Source of the DNA: a bacterium
GTDB taxonomy: Bacteria > UBP15 > UBA6099 > DSWB01
NCBI GenBank assembly: GCA_020061125.1
Contig: JAGUYV010000418.1
Location: forward strand, 1 to 8,776
Direction of reading: 5' to 3'
DNA length: 8,776 nt
In this document: piece by piece, positions 2 to 8,776 of the stretch
Position numbering within the stretch: position 1 is the stretch's first letter
How the letters are laid out: each line of letters opens with the position of its first letter
Translations under genes and position numbers: made by a program
The notes under the pieces: model-generated
Seen by the model: only the letters and a program-made list of their open reading frames with translations
Database searches by the model: none
Told to the model about the DNA's origin: nothing

Positions 2-352
2 GACGGCGTGGAACCGGCCCGCGTTTACATTGACCCGCTCATTCTTCCCGCCGGAGTGGATCAGGCCAACGGCCCCGCAGCCATCGAGGCCGTGGCCGCC
101 ATCCGGGCGGCGCACCCCGGCGTGCGCACCGTGTGCGGACTCACCAACATCTCCTACGGCCTGCCCGCCCGTGCATTGCTGAACCGCACCTACCTGGCCC
201 TGCTCATCGCCGCGGGTCTGGACGCCGCCATCGTGGACACCACCAACGCCAAGCAGAATTCCGTGATGCTCGCCGCTCTGGCCCTCACGGGCCGCGATCC
301 CTATTGCGCCGATTTCATCGGCGCGTTCAGAAAACAGCTCCTGGACATCTGA
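2..352 (+). CDS. Methyltetrahydrofolate:corrinoid methyltransferase-like protein, 3' end (5' truncated by window)
   Basis: Only the last 116 codons are present; the frame is open to the window edge, so the true start lies upstream. The fragment reads as the C-terminal half of a pterin-binding TIM barrel of the AcsE/MetH-pterin type, which moves the methyl group of methyl-tetrahydrofolate to a corrinoid protein. Visible signatures are the strand IDPLILP, the segment CGLTNISYGLP (visible residues 45-55), and LLNRTYLALLIAAGLDAAIVD. The Asn of GLTN (codon 146-148) sits where the family has the Asn that hydrogen-bonds the pterin. In acetogens and other anaerobes such proteins act in the Wood-Ljungdahl methyl branch, but related enzymes demethylate other methyl donors, and no CODH/ACS genes are visible here to decide. 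The stop is 8 bases before the next gene, so the two are probably co-transcribed. The fold assignment is firm; the exact substrate is not. Confidence 0.82.
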   Translation, partial: DGVEPARVYIDPLILPAGVDQANGPAAIEAVAAIRAAHPGVRTVCGLTNISYGLPARALLNRTYLALLIAAGLDAAIVDTTNAKQNSVMLAALALTGRDPYCADFIGAFRKQLLDI

Positions 353-360
353 CAAGGCGC

Positions 361-2877
361 ATGCCGCGAAAAGCCTCTCAATCCCTGCTCCTGCTGGCCG
401 CATATCTGCTCACGGCCGGGCTGCTCGCGTGCACCCCGTGGTTCATTCTGCCCCAGTGCCTGCTCCTGGCCCTGCCGCCCTTCGCACTGCTCATCGGCCT
501 CACCTGGACAACGGCCCGGCCCGAATACGCCGCCACCACGGAAACCCGCACCGACCCCATCGAGGATCTCGATCCCCCGGCCCGCAAAATCCTGTGGCTG
601 AACGGCTGGTGGGAGTTCCGCCTGCCCGCGGACCAGCGCTGGCGCCGCTGCCATGTGCCCCATTCCTGGAACACCATCCGCGGTCTCGAATATTACGAAG
701 GCCAGGGCTATTACCGCCGCCTGTTCAAAATCGAGGAAGGCTGGAGCCTGGGCCGCGTGGCGCTCCACTTCCGGGGATGCAACTACCGCACCGTGGTGTC
801 CATAGACGGCCGCGAGGCCGGGCGCCACGAGGGCGGCTATACGCCCTTCTCCATAGACATCACGGACCGCGTCAGCCCGGGCCGCCGCTGCGAACTCGAG
901 GTCATGGTGGACAACCGCTTGAGCCGCGACTCCGTGCCCAATGTGGTGGGCTGGCGCAACGAGGGCGGCATCCTGCGCGAAACCTGGCTCGAAACCACGC
1001 GCCCCATCCACATCACGGACGCGACCGCCGTGTGCGAACCCGACCTCAAGGGCCGCGCCGCGGTCAAGCTCACGGCGCGCATCGAAAACCCCGAATGGAC
1101 GCCCCGGGACTACCACATCGAGGTCTTCTCGCCCCAGGGCGCGCTCGTGCACGAGCACAAAGCCGAAAACTGGGGCATGCAACAGCTCGAACACGATTTC
1201 GAAATCAATTTCGTTTCTCTCTGGAGTCCACAGAATCCGGCCCTGTACACCTGCCGCATCACCATGCTCGGTGAAGAAGAAGACCAGTTCGTGATCCGGT
1301 TCGGAGTGCGCAGCATCGGGGTCCGGGACAACCGCCTCTTGCTGAACGGAGAACCCCTTGCATTGCGCGCCGTTTCCAGATTCGCGGATCATTACGGCGC
1401 GGGCATGGTGGAAACCCTGGCCGCAATAAAGGAAGACCTGCGGCGCGTGCGCGATGCGGGCTTCAACTGCGTGCGCCTGGGGCCGGTCCCGGCGCACCCC
1501 AAAATTCTCGAACAATGCGACCGACTGGGCCTGCTGGCGATCGAAGAACTGCCCGCATGGTACGGCATGAGCTTCGATCTGTCCGATCCCATGTACCAGC
1601 AGGCCGCCGCGGACCAGTTGAAGGAGCTTATCCTGCGGGACCGCAACCACCCGAGCGTGCTCATGTGGGGCCTGGCGCACAACATCGAAAACGAAACCCA
1701 GGAAGGCCGCTGGTTCCTCGAACGCCTTGTGAAAACCGCCAAAGGCCTGGACGACCGGCCCGTTTACTTCACCGCCGGAGGCGCCGCGGACAAGGACATG
1801 TGCGCGGACCTCGCCGATGTCGTGGTGATCGAGCAGTGGGGCACGGGTATGGAGCACTTCGACGCCATGCGTGGAGATATCGCGCAATGGGGCCGCCGCG
1901 CCGGGGACAAGCCTCTCGTTGTCATGTTCGCGGGCGTGCCCGCCCTGCGCGGCGCAACCATGCGCTGGGGCGGCCACTGGAGCGAAGACCGCCAGGCCCT
2001 GATCATGCAGCAGTACATCAAACAGATCGGCGCGCACGAGCGCGCCGCGGGCTTCGTGGCCGGCGCCCTGTGCGACTACCGCGACCCGAGCAATGTGGCC
2101 GGCCCCGTGCCTTTCATGCGCCTGTCCGGATTTCTGAACCACTGGCGCGAGCCGAAGACATCTTACGATGTAATCAAGCGGCTGCTCGTGGACAATGAGG
2201 AAGTCAAACTGTCCCCGGCCCAGCGCCGGGTGCCCATCACCTCGTTCTCCAAAGCCGTGGGCGTGATCGCCGCGCTCGTTGGCCTGGTGTTATGGTTCAA
2301 GCTCGGCGCAGCGGCTTCGGCGCTGTTCTACAACCCCGACCTGTTCCTCCAGCGCCATCCCGGCGCCGCGGCGTTCGGCGTGGCGGCCCTGGCCTTCTGC
2401 TTCACCGCCGTGGCCTGGGCCGTGAACATCAACAGGTTCATAAAGTCCGCGCCACGCAAGATCATGGGCGCCATACACATGCCCTACTACCTGCTCCTGT
2501 CCCACCTGCTGCGATCCGAGGCCATGATGTTCGCGTGGTCGTATGTCACCGTGGCCGTGATTTTCACCTTCTCAACCACGGCCCTGCACCTGGCCACGGA
2601 TCCCGCGCAGCCGTTTCTGGCCGTGGCCGCGCTCACGGCGGCGTGCACCATGCCCGACGCCATTTTCGCCCTCACCGCATTTTTCCGCCTGCCCCTGTGG
2701 TTCTCGGTCACGGTTTTCCATGTATGGAAAGCCGCAATATGCTTCAAGGTGCTCGGCCCTCTGGGCATGTTTATCTATGTGTTCGCCGCGCCCTATCTGC
2801 TGGTGGGCGGGTTCTTCGCATTTGTGCAATGGAAATTTCATTTGCTGAAATACGCGAGGAAAATGCTCAAGCGGTAA
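361..2877 (+). CDS. Membrane-anchored glycoside hydrolase family 2-like protein, probable pseudoenzyme
   Basis: This 838-aa protein starts at ATG 361. The open frame extends further upstream, but there it overlaps the preceding gene, and 361 gives a sensible basic/hydrophobic N-terminus (MPRK). Two hydrophobic segments lie at about residues 8-30 and 33-50. A GH2 sugar-binding jelly-roll follows (about 80-218; LNGWWEF, VPHSWN, GGYTPFSIDIT, NEGGI). Then come an Ig-like domain (about 219-315) and a TIM barrel (about 320-610; LNGEPLALRAV, FNCVRLG, RDRNHPSVLMW). The C-terminal 210 residues hold about six membrane segments (632-656, 669-692, 722-745, 752-772, 779-800, 802-823) and a basic tail. GH2 enzymes are beta-glycosidases using two Glu residues. 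Here the acid/base motif WSxGNE reads WGLAHN (436-441), and the nucleophile motif TEYG reads MFAG (522-525). Classical hydrolysis is therefore unlikely. I do not recognise the C-terminal membrane domain. Only a weak AAGG (354-357) precedes the start. Confidence 0.88.
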   Translation: MPRKASQSLLLLAAYLLTAGLLACTPWFILPQCLLLALPPFALLIGLTWTTARPEYAATTETRTDPIEDLDPPARKILWLNGWWEFRLPADQRWRRCHVPHSWNTIRGLEYYEGQGYYRRLFKIEEGWSLGRVALHFRGCNYRTVVSIDGREAGRHEGGYTPFSIDITDRVSPGRRCELEVMVDNRLSRDSVPNVVGWRNEGGILRETWLETTRPIHITDATAVCEPDLKGRAAVKLTARIENPEWTPRDYHIEVFSPQGALVHEHKAENWGMQQLEHDFEINFVSLWSPQNPALYTCRITMLGEEEDQFVIRFGVRSIGVRDNRLLLNGEPLALRAVSRFADHYGAGMVETLAAIKEDLRRVRDAGFNCVRLGPVPAHPKILEQCDRLGLLAIEELPAWYGMSFDLSDPMYQQAAADQLKELILRDRNHPSVLMWGLAHNIENETQEGRWFLERLVKTAKGLDDRPVYFTAGGAADKDMCADLADVVVIEQWGTGMEHFDAMRGDIAQWGRRAGDKPLVVMFAGVPALRGATMRWGGHWSEDRQALIMQQYIKQIGAHERAAGFVAGALCDYRDPSNVAGPVPFMRLSGFLNHWREPKTSYDVIKRLLVDNEEVKLSPAQRRVPITSFSKAVGVIAALVGLVLWFKLGAAASALFYNPDLFLQRHPGAAAFGVAALAFCFTAVAWAVNINRFIKSAPRKIMGAIHMPYYLLLSHLLRSEAMMFAWSYVTVAVIFTFSTTALHLATDPAQPFLAVAALTAACTMPDAIFALTAFFRLPLWFSVTVFHVWKAAICFKVLGPLGMFIYVFAAPYLLVGGFFAFVQWKFHLLKYARKMLKR

Positions 2878-2907: not shown

Positions 2908-4113
2908 TCAACTCGAGGGCGTTTCCGGTTCTCCGGGGCGCTTATTCATGGGAACATAGACGCAGCCTTCCTCGCCGCAGTAGTTGCCGATGTATTCAGC
3001 GCGCGGGCGGTAGAGCTGGGGCTTGGGTTGCGCTTCGGCGAACCGCTCCTCGATGACATGCGCGCACCAGCCGGCCACGCGGCTGAACGCGAACACGGGC
3101 GTGAACAGGTGCGGCGGAATGCCCATGTAGAAATAGGCCGACGCGCTGAAGAAATCCACATTCGGGTAGATGTCCGCGTTCTTGAGCCGCTTGAAATGCT
3201 TGACCGTGGACTCCATCACGGCCACGGACATGTCGTACCACGATGTGTCGCCGGTGATTTTGCCCAGCCGTTCGCTCATGGGCTGGAGCACGAACATGCG
3301 CGGGTCATAGGTCTTATACACGGCATGCCCCATGCCGAACACCTTATTGCCGCTCTCGAGGGTGGTTTTTACATATTCGTCAACATTTTCGATGCTGCCG
3401 ATCTGGTGCAGCATTTCCATAACGCGGGTGTTGGCGCCTCCGTGCAGCTCGCCACTCAAGGCGCCGCAGGCCGCGGACACCGCGGCGTACATGTGCGCGC
3501 GCGTGCTGGCAACCTCGCGCGCCGCGAAAGTCGAGGCGTTGAAGGTGTGATCCGCATGCAGCACCAGGGCCACATCCAGTTCGCGCGCCACGCCCGGATC
3601 CGGCGCCTGCCCGTGCAGCATGTACAGGAAATTCGCCGCATGGGACAAGTCCGTGCGCGGCCGCACGATGGGTTGCTGGCTGCGGATGCGCTCCCAGTAC
3701 GCCACCATGGTAGGCAGCTTGGCGATGAGGTTGATGGCCCGGTCGTAGTTGGCTTCCTTGGATTCGTCGCGCGGATCCGCGTCGTAATCCGCCAATAGCG
3801 AAGCCGCGGATTGCACCACATCCATGGTGCCGGCCGTGGCCGGACGTTCCTGCAAGTTGTGCACCATCATGTCCGGCAGATCGCGGTTCAAAATCATCTG
3901 CGAGGTGAAGTGGCGCAGCTCCTCCGCGCCCGGCAACCGGCCGTATATCAGCAGATACGCCGTTTCCTCGAATGTCGAATTCCTGGCGAGATCGTGTATG
4001 TGGTACCCCCGGTAATACAGGTTGCCCTTGTCTCCCTCGACCTTGCTGATTTTCGTGTCCGCCACGGTGATGCCGCGAAGGCCAATGTTTTTCGTGCTGT
4101 TGGGATCCGCCAT
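2908..4113 (-). CDS. gltA: Citrate synthase
   Basis: Condenses acetyl-CoA and oxaloacetate to citrate, the entry step of the TCA cycle, in the cytosol. The 401-aa product has the length of the short homodimeric class (Bacillus, archaeal and methylcitrate synthase type) rather than the longer hexameric Gram-negative type. The catalytic triad is intact: His224 (GELHGGA), His263 (GMGHAVY) and Asp320 (PNVDFF). Further conserved segments are LVLHADHTFNAS (183-194), YDPRM (269-273) with Arg272, RVAGW (345-349), and RPRAEY (369-374). The ATG at 4113 is preferred over an in-frame GTG at 4122: AAGGTG (bases 4125-4120, minus strand) sits 6 bases before the ATG and overlaps the GTG. The gene ends convergently 30 bases from the GH2-like gene and is divergent from the redox operon, which suggests shared control. 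2-Methylcitrate synthase is the main alternative; the sequence does not exclude it, but no prp genes are nearby. Confidence 0.95.
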   Translation of the reverse strand: MADPNSTKNIGLRGITVADTKISKVEGDKGNLYYRGYHIHDLARNSTFEETAYLLIYGRLPGAEELRHFTSQMILNRDLPDMMVHNLQERPATAGTMDVVQSAASLLADYDADPRDESKEANYDRAINLIAKLPTMVAYWERIRSQQPIVRPRTDLSHAANFLYMLHGQAPDPGVARELDVALVLHADHTFNASTFAAREVASTRAHMYAAVSAACGALSGELHGGANTRVMEMLHQIGSIENVDEYVKTTLESGNKVFGMGHAVYKTYDPRMFVLQPMSERLGKITGDTSWYDMSVAVMESTVKHFKRLKNADIYPNVDFFSASAYFYMGIPPHLFTPVFAFSRVAGWCAHVIEERFAEAQPKPQLYRPRAEYIGNYCGEEGCVYVPMNKRPGEPETPSS

Positions 4114-4119
4114 GTCATT

Positions 4120-4125
4120 CACCTT
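4120..4125 (-). promoter_or_regulatory. Ribosome binding site deciding the citrate synthase start
   Basis: On the minus strand AAGGTG is followed by a 6-base spacer (AATGAC) and ATG at 4113-4111. The last three bases of the site form an in-frame GTG (4122-4120) that could be mistaken for the start. That GTG has only an A-rich stretch upstream and no clear Shine-Dalgarno. Confidence 0.7.
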
Positions 4126-4364: not shown

Positions 4365-4370
4365 GAGGTG
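4365..4370 (+). promoter_or_regulatory. Ribosome binding site favouring the TTG start at 4377
   Basis: GAGGTG at 4365-4370 is followed by the 6-base spacer TTTCTT and TTG at 4377. The GTG inside this site (4368-4370) is in frame and gives a three-residue-longer product, but it has no comparable Shine-Dalgarno of its own. The layout mirrors the citrate synthase start. Confidence 0.6.
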
Positions 4371-4376
4371 TTTCTT

Positions 4377-6176
4377 TTGAAAGAAAAGCGGCTCTACCTG
4401 CGAAATGAAGAAGAGAAATTCGAGGGCACGGCCTATGCGCGCCAGGTGGTGCGGGACATCCGGTTCTCCACGGATGCGCGCGACTTCGGGTACATCGCCG
4501 AGAACATCCCCTGCCAGGACGCATGCCCGGTATACACCAACATCCCCGGCTACATCCGCTGCATATTCGAAAACCGCAACGGGCGCTCCTACGAGCTGAA
4601 CCGCATGGTGAATATCCTGCCCGGCGTGCTGGGCCGTATCTGCAGCCGCCCCTGCGAGGCGCGCTGCCGCCACGGCGAAAGCGATCTGGGCGAACCCGTG
4701 AAAATCTGCCACCTCAAGCGCGCGGCCGCGGACCACAAGCACGCCGGACACCGCATCTCCGAAAACCTGTTCGCTCCCTCCGGCAAAACCGTGGCCGTGA
4801 TCGGCAGCGGCCCCTCGGGCCTGGGCGCAGCCCACGACCTCGCCGCGCTCGGCCACAAGGTCGCCCTCTACGAATCCATGCCGCGCCCCGGCGGCATGCT
4901 CATGTACGGCATCCCCGAGTTCCGCCTGCCGCGCGATCTGCTCATGCTCGAAATCAGCAACATTCTGCGCCTGGGCGTGGACCTTCATTCGGGCGTGGCC
5001 GCAGGCCGCGACATTTCTCTCAAGGATCTTTTGAAAAAATACGACGCCGTGGTTTTGACAACGGGCACGCTCTCGCCCAACGATCTCGGCATCCCCGGCG
5101 AGTCCCTTCCCGGCGTGCTCTCGGGCCTGGATTTCATGATGCGCGTGAACCAGGGCGAAACCCCGGATGTGGGCGAGCGCGTGGCCATCATCGGCGACGG
5201 ATTCACGGCCATGGACTGCGCCCGCACCTGCATGCGCTTCGGCGCCAGGGAGGTCACGGTCAACATCCGCAAAACCGAGGAATTCATGCCCGTGGACGAG
5301 CATGAAATCTTCGAGGCCAAGTTCGAGAAAGTCAAAATCATCGGCCTGGTGAACTCCGTGCGCATCCTCGGCAAAGACCGGGTCGAGGGCATCGTGTTCG
5401 AGCGCAACCGGCTCGAATTCTCGCGCACGGGCGCGGGCCGCGACACTGTGCCGATCGGCAACTCCGAATTCGAGGTCCCCTGCGACACGGTCATCGCCGC
5501 CATCGGCCAGAACCCGGCCACGGATTTCAACGATGTGAAATTCAAGCTCGACGGCCACCGCATTTTCACGAAAAACGGAACCCACGCCACGAGCGTGAAA
5601 AACCTGTTCGCGGCCGGGGACTGCAACACCGGCGCGAGCACGGTGATCGCGTCCATCGCCCAGGGCCGCGGCTGCGCGCACGAGGTGGACGCCCTGTTCG
5701 CGGGCCGAAAACGCAAGACCATGCTCGTGCGCTTCGAACCCGCGGAACAGACCGACCGCCAGCGCGCCTGGGACTTCATCCCCCCGGTGCCCATGCCCGC
5801 CGCGGACCGCTCCGAGCGCCTCGCCGATTACCGCAACGAGGTCGAGCAGGGCTTCACTCCGGAGCAGGCGCTCGAAGAATCCAAACGCTGTTATCTGTGC
5901 TATCTCAAATATGAAATCAATGTGGACCGCTGCATCTACTGCTTCGCGTGCATTGATGTGGCCCCGCGCGACTGCATCAAGATGATCCACGATGTGGCCA
6001 TCAAGCCCTCCGGCGCTTACGGCGACTTCATGCAGACCCGCGACTGGACCGATGTGCGCGCCATCGCCATTGACAACAAGCGCTGCATCCGCTGCGGCAA
6101 GTGCTACGAAGTCTGCCCCACGCAGTGCATCCACATCATCAAAACCGAACTCATCGAGCAGGATCTGGAGGCGTAA
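4377..6176 (+). CDS. GltD/NfnB-like FAD- and NAD(P)-binding oxidoreductase with N-terminal Fe-S and C-terminal ferredoxin domains
   Basis: The 599-aa protein is numbered from TTG 4377; a GTG at 4368 is the alternative start. In family terms it is a glutamate synthase small subunit-like electron transferase that passes electrons between NAD(P)H, FAD and Fe-S centres. The N-terminal domain is of the DPYD domain-II type, with Cys46 and Cys50 (CQDACP) and Cys89, Cys93, Cys97 (CSRPCEARC). Next come the FAD site GSGPSGLGAA (from 143), PRPGGMLMYGIPEFRLP (169-185), and the second nucleotide site IIGDGFTAMDCA. AAGDCN (412-417) closes the FAD domain. The C-terminal ferredoxin region has Cys519/522/525 (CIYCFAC) and CIRCGKCYEVCP (570-581). 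The first motif has Ala529 where a fourth Cys is normal. No glutamate synthase large subunit is present. Its operon partners suggest it serves as electron-output subunit of the 2-oxoacid oxidoreductase. Its stop overlaps the next start by one base. Confidence 0.88.
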   Translation: MKEKRLYLRNEEEKFEGTAYARQVVRDIRFSTDARDFGYIAENIPCQDACPVYTNIPGYIRCIFENRNGRSYELNRMVNILPGVLGRICSRPCEARCRHGESDLGEPVKICHLKRAAADHKHAGHRISENLFAPSGKTVAVIGSGPSGLGAAHDLAALGHKVALYESMPRPGGMLMYGIPEFRLPRDLLMLEISNILRLGVDLHSGVAAGRDISLKDLLKKYDAVVLTTGTLSPNDLGIPGESLPGVLSGLDFMMRVNQGETPDVGERVAIIGDGFTAMDCARTCMRFGAREVTVNIRKTEEFMPVDEHEIFEAKFEKVKIIGLVNSVRILGKDRVEGIVFERNRLEFSRTGAGRDTVPIGNSEFEVPCDTVIAAIGQNPATDFNDVKFKLDGHRIFTKNGTHATSVKNLFAAGDCNTGASTVIASIAQGRGCAHEVDALFAGRKRKTMLVRFEPAEQTDRQRAWDFIPPVPMPAADRSERLADYRNEVEQGFTPEQALEESKRCYLCYLKYEINVDRCIYCFACIDVAPRDCIKMIHDVAIKPSGAYGDFMQTRDWTDVRAIAIDNKRCIRCGKCYEVCPTQCIHIIKTELIEQDLEA

Positions 6177-7198
6177 TGCCCAAAAACGACCATTATGTGA
6201 TCATCGGCAACGGCCCGGCTGGCAACGCGGCCGCCGACACCCTGCGCGCCAGCGACAAGCTCGCTCGCATCTCCATCATCTCGGACGAGATGTTCACTTT
6301 CTACTACCGCCACAGGCTGCCGGAATTCCTCACCGGCGCACTGGACGCGGACGCCCTCACCGTGCGCCCCTACACGGTGTACAAAGACAACAATGTCCGC
6401 ATGCGCCTGGGCCAGTGCGTGGAGCGCATTGACCCCGCGGACAAAACTCTGTACCTCAAGCACATGGAAAAGGTGCATTACACAAAGCTGCTCATCGCCA
6501 CCGGCGGCCGCGCCTTCACGCCTCCGCACCTGGCGCCGTTCCGCGACAGCCTGTGCTTCATGACCCGCTACACCGACGCGCTCCAGCTCAAGCCACGCAT
6601 CCAGGACGCGCAGTCCATCCTCATCCTCGGCGGAGACCTCATCAGCCTCAATGTCCAGCAGCAGCTTCTCAAAGCCAAAAAGACCGTGTACTTCGCGCTC
6701 AACCCGGACAGCTTCTGGCCCCTCAAGCTCACCCCCGAGATGGCCGCCCGCATCCAGAAAAGCCTGGAGAAAAAAGGCGTGGCCTCGTGCGTGGCAGGCG
6801 ACATTCAGGACATCGCCTGCAAGAAAAACGGCAAGCTCGAAGTCACCCTCGACAGCAAGTGCGCGTTCACCGTGGACCTCGTGGGCTGCTTCATGGGCCT
6901 CACGCCCAACATCGAGTTCATCCTCGGCTCGGGCATAGACACCGAGCGCGGCGTGCTCGTGGACGACCGCCTGCGCACCAACTTCCCCGATGTCTACGCC
7001 TGCGGCGACTGCGCGCAAATCTACAATCCCGCCCTCAAGGACTACTGGGTCTCCGTGGGCTGGCACAACGCCGAACTCCAGGGCCGCACCGCCGCCCTCA
7101 ACATCCTCGGCGACACCAAGGTCATCAAGCCCCTCAAGCAGGGCGTGCTCGAGGTCGAGGGCCTCAAGGTCAACACTTCGTGGTGGAAAAAATTCTAA
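6176..7198 (+). CDS. FAD-dependent oxidoreductase (NirB-N/rubredoxin reductase-like) with degenerate NAD(P) motif
   Basis: The 340-aa protein starts at ATG 6176, sharing one base with the preceding TAA (TAATG), with GGAGG at 6167-6171 as ribosome site. The tight coupling implies stoichiometric synthesis with the GltD-like protein. The fold is a class-III pyridine nucleotide-disulfide oxidoreductase. The FAD dinucleotide motif is IIGNGPAGNAA (9-19), followed by ATGGR (108-112) and the C-terminal FAD motif YACGDCA (274-280). The Phe-Tyr-Tyr-Arg-His-Arg-Leu segment (42-48) resembles the 'YxRxxL' region of NirB-like reductases. The NAD(P)-binding motif, normally GGGxIGLE, reads GGDLISLN (152-159), losing the third Gly, the Gly before Leu, and the acidic residue. 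The protein may receive electrons from a partner instead of NAD(P)H. No redox-active CxxC disulfide is seen. The natural substrate is unknown. Confidence 0.85.
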   Translation: MPKNDHYVIIGNGPAGNAAADTLRASDKLARISIISDEMFTFYYRHRLPEFLTGALDADALTVRPYTVYKDNNVRMRLGQCVERIDPADKTLYLKHMEKVHYTKLLIATGGRAFTPPHLAPFRDSLCFMTRYTDALQLKPRIQDAQSILILGGDLISLNVQQQLLKAKKTVYFALNPDSFWPLKLTPEMAARIQKSLEKKGVASCVAGDIQDIACKKNGKLEVTLDSKCAFTVDLVGCFMGLTPNIEFILGSGIDTERGVLVDDRLRTNFPDVYACGDCAQIYNPALKDYWVSVGWHNAELQGRTAALNILGDTKVIKPLKQGVLEVEGLKVNTSWWKKF

Positions 7199-7240
7199 CA
7201 GGTTTTCAGCGCTTCGCTCCGGGAGATTAAACACACAATC
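7199..7240 (+). other. Short intergenic gap with small hairpin between flavoprotein and korA-like gene
   Basis: These 42 bases are the only real gap inside the redox operon. They include AGCGCTTCGCT (about 7208-7218), able to form a 4-bp stem with a 3-base loop. No T-run follows, so it is not a classical terminator. I see no promoter here, and the three genes most likely share a transcript. Confidence 0.3.
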
Positions 7241-8776
7241 ATGGCAAATGTAGACATCGTAATCGAAATATGCGGCATGGCCGGCGAGGGCGTGATCTCG
7301 GGCGGCGAAATCCTGGCCCGGTGCATGAGCGACCAGGGCTTCGACATCATGTCCTTCGACAGCTACCCCGCCGAAATCCGCGGCTTCGGCAAGTGCGTGG
7401 CCCACACACGCATCGGCAGCAAACCCATCCTTTCGCCGGGCAAATACTCGGACATCCTCATCTCGCTCAACGACAAGCACGCCATCGAGCAACTGCCCGC
7501 GCTGCGCGAAACCGGCGTGGTGATCTACGACAGCATGCCGCGCGCCTACCTCGAAGAAGACGAAAGCATCGCCGGCTGGATCGAGCCGGGCATGACCTCC
7601 TACGGCGTGCCCCTGCTCCAGCTCTCGCACAAGGCCGCGGGCGACGCGCGCGGACGCAACATGGTGGCCCTCGGCGCGCTCGCCGCCCTGTTCCACATCA
7701 ACCCGGACGCCATGACCGCCACACTCAAAAAACGCTATGCCAAAAAGAAACAAATCGTCATTGACAACAATGTGAACTCGTTCCTCGAAGGCTTCAACTG
7801 GACCCGCGAGAACATCGTCAAAACCGACCGGCTCTCGTTCGGCGGCGTGCGCGCCAAAGCCGCGGACAAGGCCATCATGAGCGGCAACCAGGCCGTGGTG
7901 CGCGCCGCCCTGGACAGCAACATCCACCTCTACGCCGGTTATCCCATCACCCCGGCCACCAGCATCATGGAATACCTCGCGCGCCAGCTCCCGCTCTCCG
8001 GCGGCGTGCTCGTGCAGACCGAGGACGAAATCTCGGCCATCGGCCATGTGATCGGCGCGGGCTTCGCGGGCAGGCGCGCCATGACCGCCACCAGCGGTCC
8101 CGGCCTGTGCCTCATGAGCGAGTTCATCAACTACGCCGCCATGGCCGAGTGCCCCGCCGTGATCGTGAACTCGCAGCGCGGCGGCCCCAGCACCGGCCTC
8201 CCAACAAAAACCGAGCAGTCGGATCTGAACATCGCCCTGTTCGGCGCGTCAGGCGATTCCCCGCGCATCGTGCTCGCCCCGCGCTCCGTGGCCGAGTGCC
8301 ACTCCTTCACATGCATGGCATTCCACCTCGCCGAAAAATTCCAGACCCCGGTCATTCTGCTGCTCGACTTCTTCCTGTCCCGCAGCCTCAAGAACATTGA
8401 CCACCCCAAGCTGCCGGACAAAAAATGGCTGGCGTCCAACCTCGCGCCGTCCGCCGCGGACCTCAAGGACTACAAGCGGTTCAAGATCACGGACAGCGGG
8501 GTGTCCCCGCGCGCCCTGCCCGGCACGCCCGGCGGCATGCATGTGGCCACGGGCCTCGAACACAACGAAAAGGGCAAGCCCGTGTACGACGCGCGCTCCC
8601 ACGCGGCCATGACCGCCAAGCGATACCGCAAGCTCGACCACGCCGCGCGCGAAATCCCCCGCCCCCTGTGGACCGGTGACAAAAAGGACATCGCCGTGGG
8701 CGTTCTAACCTGGGGCTCCACCGCGGGCGCGGCCATGGAAGCCGTGGACCGTGCACGCGCCGCGGGCGTGCGCGCC
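7241..8776 (+). CDS. korA: 2-oxoacid:acceptor oxidoreductase, fused gamma-alpha subunit (3' truncated by window)
   Basis: The frame is open from ATG 7241 through the last base: 512 codons with no stop. The enzyme oxidatively decarboxylates a 2-oxoacid with CoA to an acyl-CoA and passes electrons to ferredoxin or a flavoprotein. The gamma domain is N-terminal (about 1-190; CGMAGEGVISGGEIL at 11-25, SYPAEIRGFG). The alpha domain follows from about 213 (SGNQAVVRAA), with the hallmark YPITP at 234-238, ED near 265, TSGPG (284-288) and RGGPSTGLPTK (313-323). The visible 3' end enters alpha domain II (DIAVGVLTWGSTAG). Fused gamma-alpha subunits are usually about 560-650 aa, so a modest C-terminal part is missing. 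A 2-oxoglutarate enzyme is favoured by the divergent citrate synthase, but a branched-chain or other 2-oxoacid is possible. GGGAGA (7221-7226) lies 14 bases before the start, longer than usual. A TPP-binding beta subunit gene should follow outside the window. Confidence 0.93.
   Translation, partial: MANVDIVIEICGMAGEGVISGGEILARCMSDQGFDIMSFDSYPAEIRGFGKCVAHTRIGSKPILSPGKYSDILISLNDKHAIEQLPALRETGVVIYDSMPRAYLEEDESIAGWIEPGMTSYGVPLLQLSHKAAGDARGRNMVALGALAALFHINPDAMTATLKKRYAKKKQIVIDNNVNSFLEGFNWTRENIVKTDRLSFGGVRAKAADKAIMSGNQAVVRAALDSNIHLYAGYPITPATSIMEYLARQLPLSGGVLVQTEDEISAIGHVIGAGFAGRRAMTATSGPGLCLMSEFINYAAMAECPAVIVNSQRGGPSTGLPTKTEQSDLNIALFGASGDSPRIVLAPRSVAECHSFTCMAFHLAEKFQTPVILLLDFFLSRSLKNIDHPKLPDKKWLASNLAPSAADLKDYKRFKITDSGVSPRALPGTPGGMHVATGLEHNEKGKPVYDARSHAAMTAKRYRKLDHAAREIPRPLWTGDKKDIAVGVLTWGSTAGAAMEAVDRARAAGVRA

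Follow-up and report, generated by a model that had tools for sequence, protein, structure and literature searches.

A conserved GH2-fold membrane protein of the candidate phylum UBP15 with an erased active site, a probable binding or assembly scaffold

The window, that is, the whole stretch of 8,776 nucleotides analysed here, carries a gene for a GH2-fold protein that has lost its active site and ends in a polytopic membrane tail (Table 1). Four points are established: the protein has a GH2 fold, canonical active-site residues have been lost throughout the order, selection is purifying, and tail and GH2 are fused in every copy. Judging from the sequences, it is probable that this polytopic membrane protein uses its non-hydrolysing GH2 body as a binding or assembly scaffold. 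The body would then be a docking or scaffolding module that the tail anchors to the membrane.

Table 1. Features of the window and of the GH2-fold gene (TM, transmembrane)
Feature	Position	Strand	Basis or remark
Pterin-binding methyltransferase (MeTr-like) gene, 3' part	2-352	+	Immediate upstream neighbour
GH2-fold membrane pseudoenzyme	361-2877	+	838 aa, ATG at 361
N-terminal pair of hydrophobic helices (aa 8-47), likely TM hairpin	382-501	+	Hydropathy
GH2 N-terminal jelly-roll ("sugar binding") domain, aa 75-215	583-1005	+	Pfam
GH2 Ig-like domain, aa 216-318	1006-1314	+	Pfam
GH2 TIM barrel, aa 319-608; active site erased	1315-2184	+	Pfam, alignment, fold search
LGPVP	1477-1491	+	Sequence
RDRNHPSVLMW motif	1636-1668	+	Sequence
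GLAHN (in place of acid/base motif)	1669-1683	+	Sequence
Asn441 codon, acid/base Glu position (GUS E413)	1681-1683	+	Alignment
Glu443 codon, two residues beyond acid/base position	1687-1689	+	Alignment
KPLVVMFAG (nucleophile stretch)	1909-1935	+	Sequence
Phe523 codon, nucleophile Glu position (GUS E504)	1927-1929	+	Alignment
C-terminal polytopic membrane tail, aa 609-838, probably about six TM	2185-2874	+	Hydropathy
Citrate synthase	2908-4122	-	Follows the GH2-fold gene
Iron-sulfur flavoprotein	4368-6176		Follows citrate synthase
NAD-dependent reductase	6173-7198		Follows the flavoprotein gene
2-oxoacid:acceptor oxidoreductase alpha subunit	7241 to window end		Follows the reductase gene

Domain Layout and Predicted Structure

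The jelly roll, Ig-like domain and TIM barrel that characterize the GH2 fold superfamily are all present, and the three Pfam families score above their cut-offs (PF02837, 40.1 bits against 28; PF00703, 32.6 against 23; PF02836, 81.6 against 21). In addition, residues 93-606 align with the solved GH2 beta-galacturonidase 6ncw (1.5e-45). With helices at its N-terminus and a multi-TM tail at its C-terminus, the protein has the membrane-tailed GH2 design (N-terminal TM helix or signal peptide, GH2, C-terminal multi-TM tail). A Pfam search with the tail matched no family; Yip1, suspected from the look of the tails, was dropped when Pfam gave no match. Among 60 genomes searched, the tail was confined to the UBP15 order and was always fused to GH2.

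For the whole protein, AlphaFold2 with a seven-row alignment gave a weak model (pLDDT 53), which places the N-terminal helices at residues 2-23 and 30-48. The GH2 part alone was modelled with middling confidence (pLDDT 67). Structure searches with this second model place beta-glucuronidases, beta-galacturonidases and beta-galactosidases of GH2 at the top (Foldseek E down to 2.6e-39; VIA Z 26). However, the rmsd is about 17 A despite the Z of about 26, which suggests wrong domain placement, and the model is therefore read at the level of fold and not of catalytic geometry.

Loss of the Active Site

Escherichia coli UidA (GUS) and LacZ served as yardsticks for the active site. Compared with GUS, all nine canonical positions tested are replaced, whether catalytic or adjacent (N412>H, E413>N, E504>F) or contacting the substrate (D163>G, H330>P, Y468>W, W549>G, N566>R, K568>S), and LacZ H357 is likewise replaced, by F. 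The protein thus lacks the sequence features of a GH2 retaining glycosidase: the acid/base glutamate of the NE motif, where barrel strand 4 ends, the nucleophile glutamate on strand 7 and the conserved substrate residues. The residue numbers and motifs given in the original prediction (Asn441, Phe523, LGPVP) are correct when counted from the ATG at 361, and so is its statement that both catalytic glutamates are replaced. It was too narrow in confining the loss to these two residues, since seven further canonical positions, and with them the whole cleft, have gone.

Direct reading of the sequence finds no aspartate or glutamate from Lys517 to Ser541, so a shift in the alignment cannot rescue the nucleophile. 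Both glutamates are present in every tail-less GH2 of the same alignments, as they are in another GH2 protein of the same genome (C448, L035); the loss is therefore not a peculiarity of the genetic code or of sequencing.

Orthologues in the Order

All seven genomes of the order, the window's own and six others, contain an orthologue with the full TM-GH2-TM architecture. The six were recovered by an alignment-based contig scan, whose matches include the MAGs bacterium UBP15_UBA6099 and ADurb.Bin236, names that we take to indicate the candidate phylum UBP15; a single-protein scan recovered none. The identity is 42-45% along the entire protein and extends into the tail, and one of the six (in G005) is divided by a contig end.

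The catalytic positions are gone in every orthologue. At position 441 the orthologues have N, S, R or D. For position 523, one alignment gives F, H or L, and a second, shifted by one column, gives F, K, P or Q. Nearly all nine positions are also replaced in the orthologues and in a paralogue group of the order (group B, below); the exceptions are N412, kept in L006 and L011, Y468, kept in most of group B, and D163 with H330, both kept in L034. Catalytic residues that drift in this way amid a conserved remainder suggest, as we infer, an active site freed from its former role. The original prediction had proposed to align homologues and ask whether the substitutions are conserved: the loss itself is common to all seven, while the residues that replace the old ones are not conserved.

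The protein could still be an enzyme, either by means of displaced catalytic residues such as Glu443 or through a different chemistry. Glu443 is invariant across the seven orthologues, and the G005 orthologue has Asp at 441. Against this, the stretch that should hold the nucleophile is free of acids, position 523 varies as described, the substrate residues are lost, and in the wider clade of dead tailed proteins other residues, among them A, P, D, N and M, take the place of Glu443. Glu445, the second displaced candidate of the original prediction, is E, G, D and D among the orthologues. This part of the prediction is not supported, and we consider an enzyme of this kind very improbable.

Selection on the Gene

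Among four species of one genus, the dead GH2 gene has a dN/dS near that of the neighbouring gyrB (0.05-0.10 against 0.02-0.06), and the frame is open at full length in every genome where the contig allows. Gone catalytic residues and fast-diverging tails would also be seen in a decaying gene that stays open by chance, but the intact frames and low dN/dS values make decay scarcely credible. The original prediction of a pseudoenzyme under selection is thus supported by the low dN/dS, by the loss of the active site in all seven genomes and by the conserved architecture.

Conservation is uneven along the GH2 body. Across four lineages, 40% of the jelly-roll columns and 39% of the Ig columns are invariant, against 27% in the barrel, so a contact surface is more likely to lie in the first two domains, and docking would probably proceed through them.

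Sugar Binding or Scaffolding

The original prediction had left the role of the protein as "sugar-binding or scaffolding". Under the first of these, the protein would be a membrane-held lectin that binds a glycan with the old cleft or with the jelly roll. The Pfam name of the GH2 N-terminal domain refers to sugar binding, this domain is the best conserved part of the protein, and the loss of catalysis with binding kept is a common path. However, the cleft residues that correspond to GUS D163, H330, Y468, W549, N566 and K568 are all replaced and vary among orthologues, and in GH2 enzymes the jelly roll chiefly serves to complete the active site. Since the loss spans the whole cleft, a scaffold is the likelier of the two roles, and we consider a lectin unlikely.

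The Side of the Membrane

The scaffold reading can be refined by asking on which side of the membrane the body lies. In this order, one extra TM helix at the N-terminus and another before the tail may have inverted the GH2 body, which would make it a cytosolic scaffold to which periplasmic glycans are out of reach. In the window group (group A), two hydrophobic helices at the N-terminus take the place of the one TM helix or signal peptide of groups B to D, and the N- and C-termini are both basic (two and five Lys/Arg, respectively), which is consistent with an N-in/C-in topology and a body inside. On the other hand, hydropathy on its own is a weak guide to a cytoplasmic body, and a positive stretch likewise precedes the tail in groups B and D, in which a single N-terminal TM helix puts the body outside. 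More generally, the single N-terminal TM helix or signal peptide of groups B to D implies that their GH2 bodies should be outside. We hold the inversion as a tentative and rather doubtful addition to the scaffold reading.

A Wider Clade of Membrane-Tailed GH2 Proteins

Tailed proteins were used as queries, with two profiles, to search 386 genomes. Group B (L030-L034) is a paralogue within the order that has its own tail and a dead site. Group C extends to 11 families beyond the order (f4, f10, f48, f54, f56, f77, f84, f173, f178, f241 and f248); its members have an N-terminal signal or TM helix, GH2 and a tail of 5-7 TM helices, and in none is the catalytic pair intact. One of them (G350) has Glu at the acid/base position and has lost the nucleophile. 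Conversely, Asp stands at the nucleophile position without the acid/base residue in G196, G202, G333 and the group B protein of G001. In group D (L012, L064 and L065, from G046, G191 and G323), a tail is combined with an intact catalytic pair, and these proteins are apparently membrane-integral glycosidases.

In a tree built without the active-site columns, which has no outgroup root and has long branches in group C, a branch (97/92) separates 22 dead tailed proteins from the rest. Group D holds together (100/99), as do 15 tail-less active proteins (95/91), and group D sits between the dead tailed proteins and the ordinary GH2 enzymes. An earlier tree of 33 rows agreed, with a weaker dead group (76/59). 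The least history that fits is one gain of a tail followed by one loss of catalysis, and the window protein would thus likely descend from a membrane-tailed and still catalytic GH2, such as those of group D. Comparison by hhalign found no relation among the tails of groups A to D; with the tails unalignable, a single tail origin would rest on the GH2 tree with its long branches.

Taken together, groups A to C may represent an ancient and unrecognised bacterial class of polytopic GH2 pseudoenzymes, with a single origin in a catalytic GH2 that already had a tail, which many lineages now keep as a scaffold of the cell envelope or, in the UBP15 order, of the cytoplasmic face, a proposal that in our estimation falls somewhat short of probable. 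In the open-licence papers searched, no description of GH2 pseudoenzymes with membrane tails was found.

Gene Neighbourhood

In each of the order's seven genomes, the MeTr-like gene lies directly upstream of the dead GH2 gene. The start ATG and the upstream stop overlap by 8 nt in five of them (ATGCATAG or ATGTATAG); in G001 a putative TTG start gives an 11-nt overlap with the MeTr-like stop, and at the window locus there is an 8-nt gap. The two genes look like a translationally coupled pair, which does not in itself imply a joint function, and a pterin-binding methyltransferase has no obvious link to a membrane scaffold.

The MeTr-like genes of one genus (L038-L041) have dN/dS values of 0.22-0.56, several times those of the adjoining dead GH2 gene, although the dS values are low and a contig end truncates one of the copies. 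In G001, the MeTr-like protein (L037, 9061-9999) has lost the N-terminal ERIN motif (FIPVDDNIVAGW versus FITIAERINATRK), and the genome contains a second MeTr copy (G001:C84) that is 42% identical to the query MeTr.

In group C, an SMC gene lies beside or near the dead GH2 gene in seven genomes, and a gene for a GWxTD domain (PF20094) in seven. These smc and GWxTD loci belong to several families (L046, 8773-16936; L118, L119, L120, L124, L125, L127, L130 and L131). A GWxTD search in the UBP15 order gave no match, but the control was also without a match anywhere; no paper on GWxTD was found in the open-licence papers searched. The neighbours thus differ by lineage and give no single functional clue.

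Further along the window (4368-8776), the row of genes for a flavoprotein, a ferredoxin-type reductase and a 2-oxoacid:acceptor oxidoreductase resembles the genes of a phenylglyoxylate dehydrogenase-type complex.

Comparison with Known Systems

The window protein shares the order jelly roll, Ig-like domain and TIM barrel with E. coli UidA and with 6ncw of Eisenbergiella tayi, and the folds match. It differs from both in that the catalytic and substrate residues are replaced and membrane helices are present at both ends.

The Klotho proteins of animals belong to GH1 and have a single TM helix. Like the window protein they are membrane-anchored and have a glycosidase fold, in this case that of pseudoglycosidases used as co-receptors (PMC10628560); the families differ (GH1 versus GH2) and there is no sequence relation. 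Similarly, 4F2hc (SLC3A2) and rBAT (SLC3A1) are dead alpha-glucosidase ectodomains of amino acid transporters, in which a membrane-held glycosidase fold serves a membrane partner without cutting sugar (PMC8537225). The working principle of the window protein may be of this kind, but with the polytopic part in the same chain. This is an analogy and not a relation: 4F2hc and rBAT are eukaryotic, have one TM helix and work with a transporter that is a separate chain, and the GH13 alpha-amylase fold of SLC3-type heavy chains is absent from the window protein, whose fold is GH2.

Membrane scaffolds made from dead glycosidases are thus already known in animals, from GH13 and GH1. The fold would be put to a new use in a bacterial GH2 counterpart that carries a polytopic tail of its own and is seen here in at least 11 families as well as an entire candidate order. 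It would also be a warning against annotating such genes as beta-galactosidase or beta-glucuronidase. In the active tailed proteins of group D, the state "before" the loss would be at hand, so that the loss of function could be studied directly.
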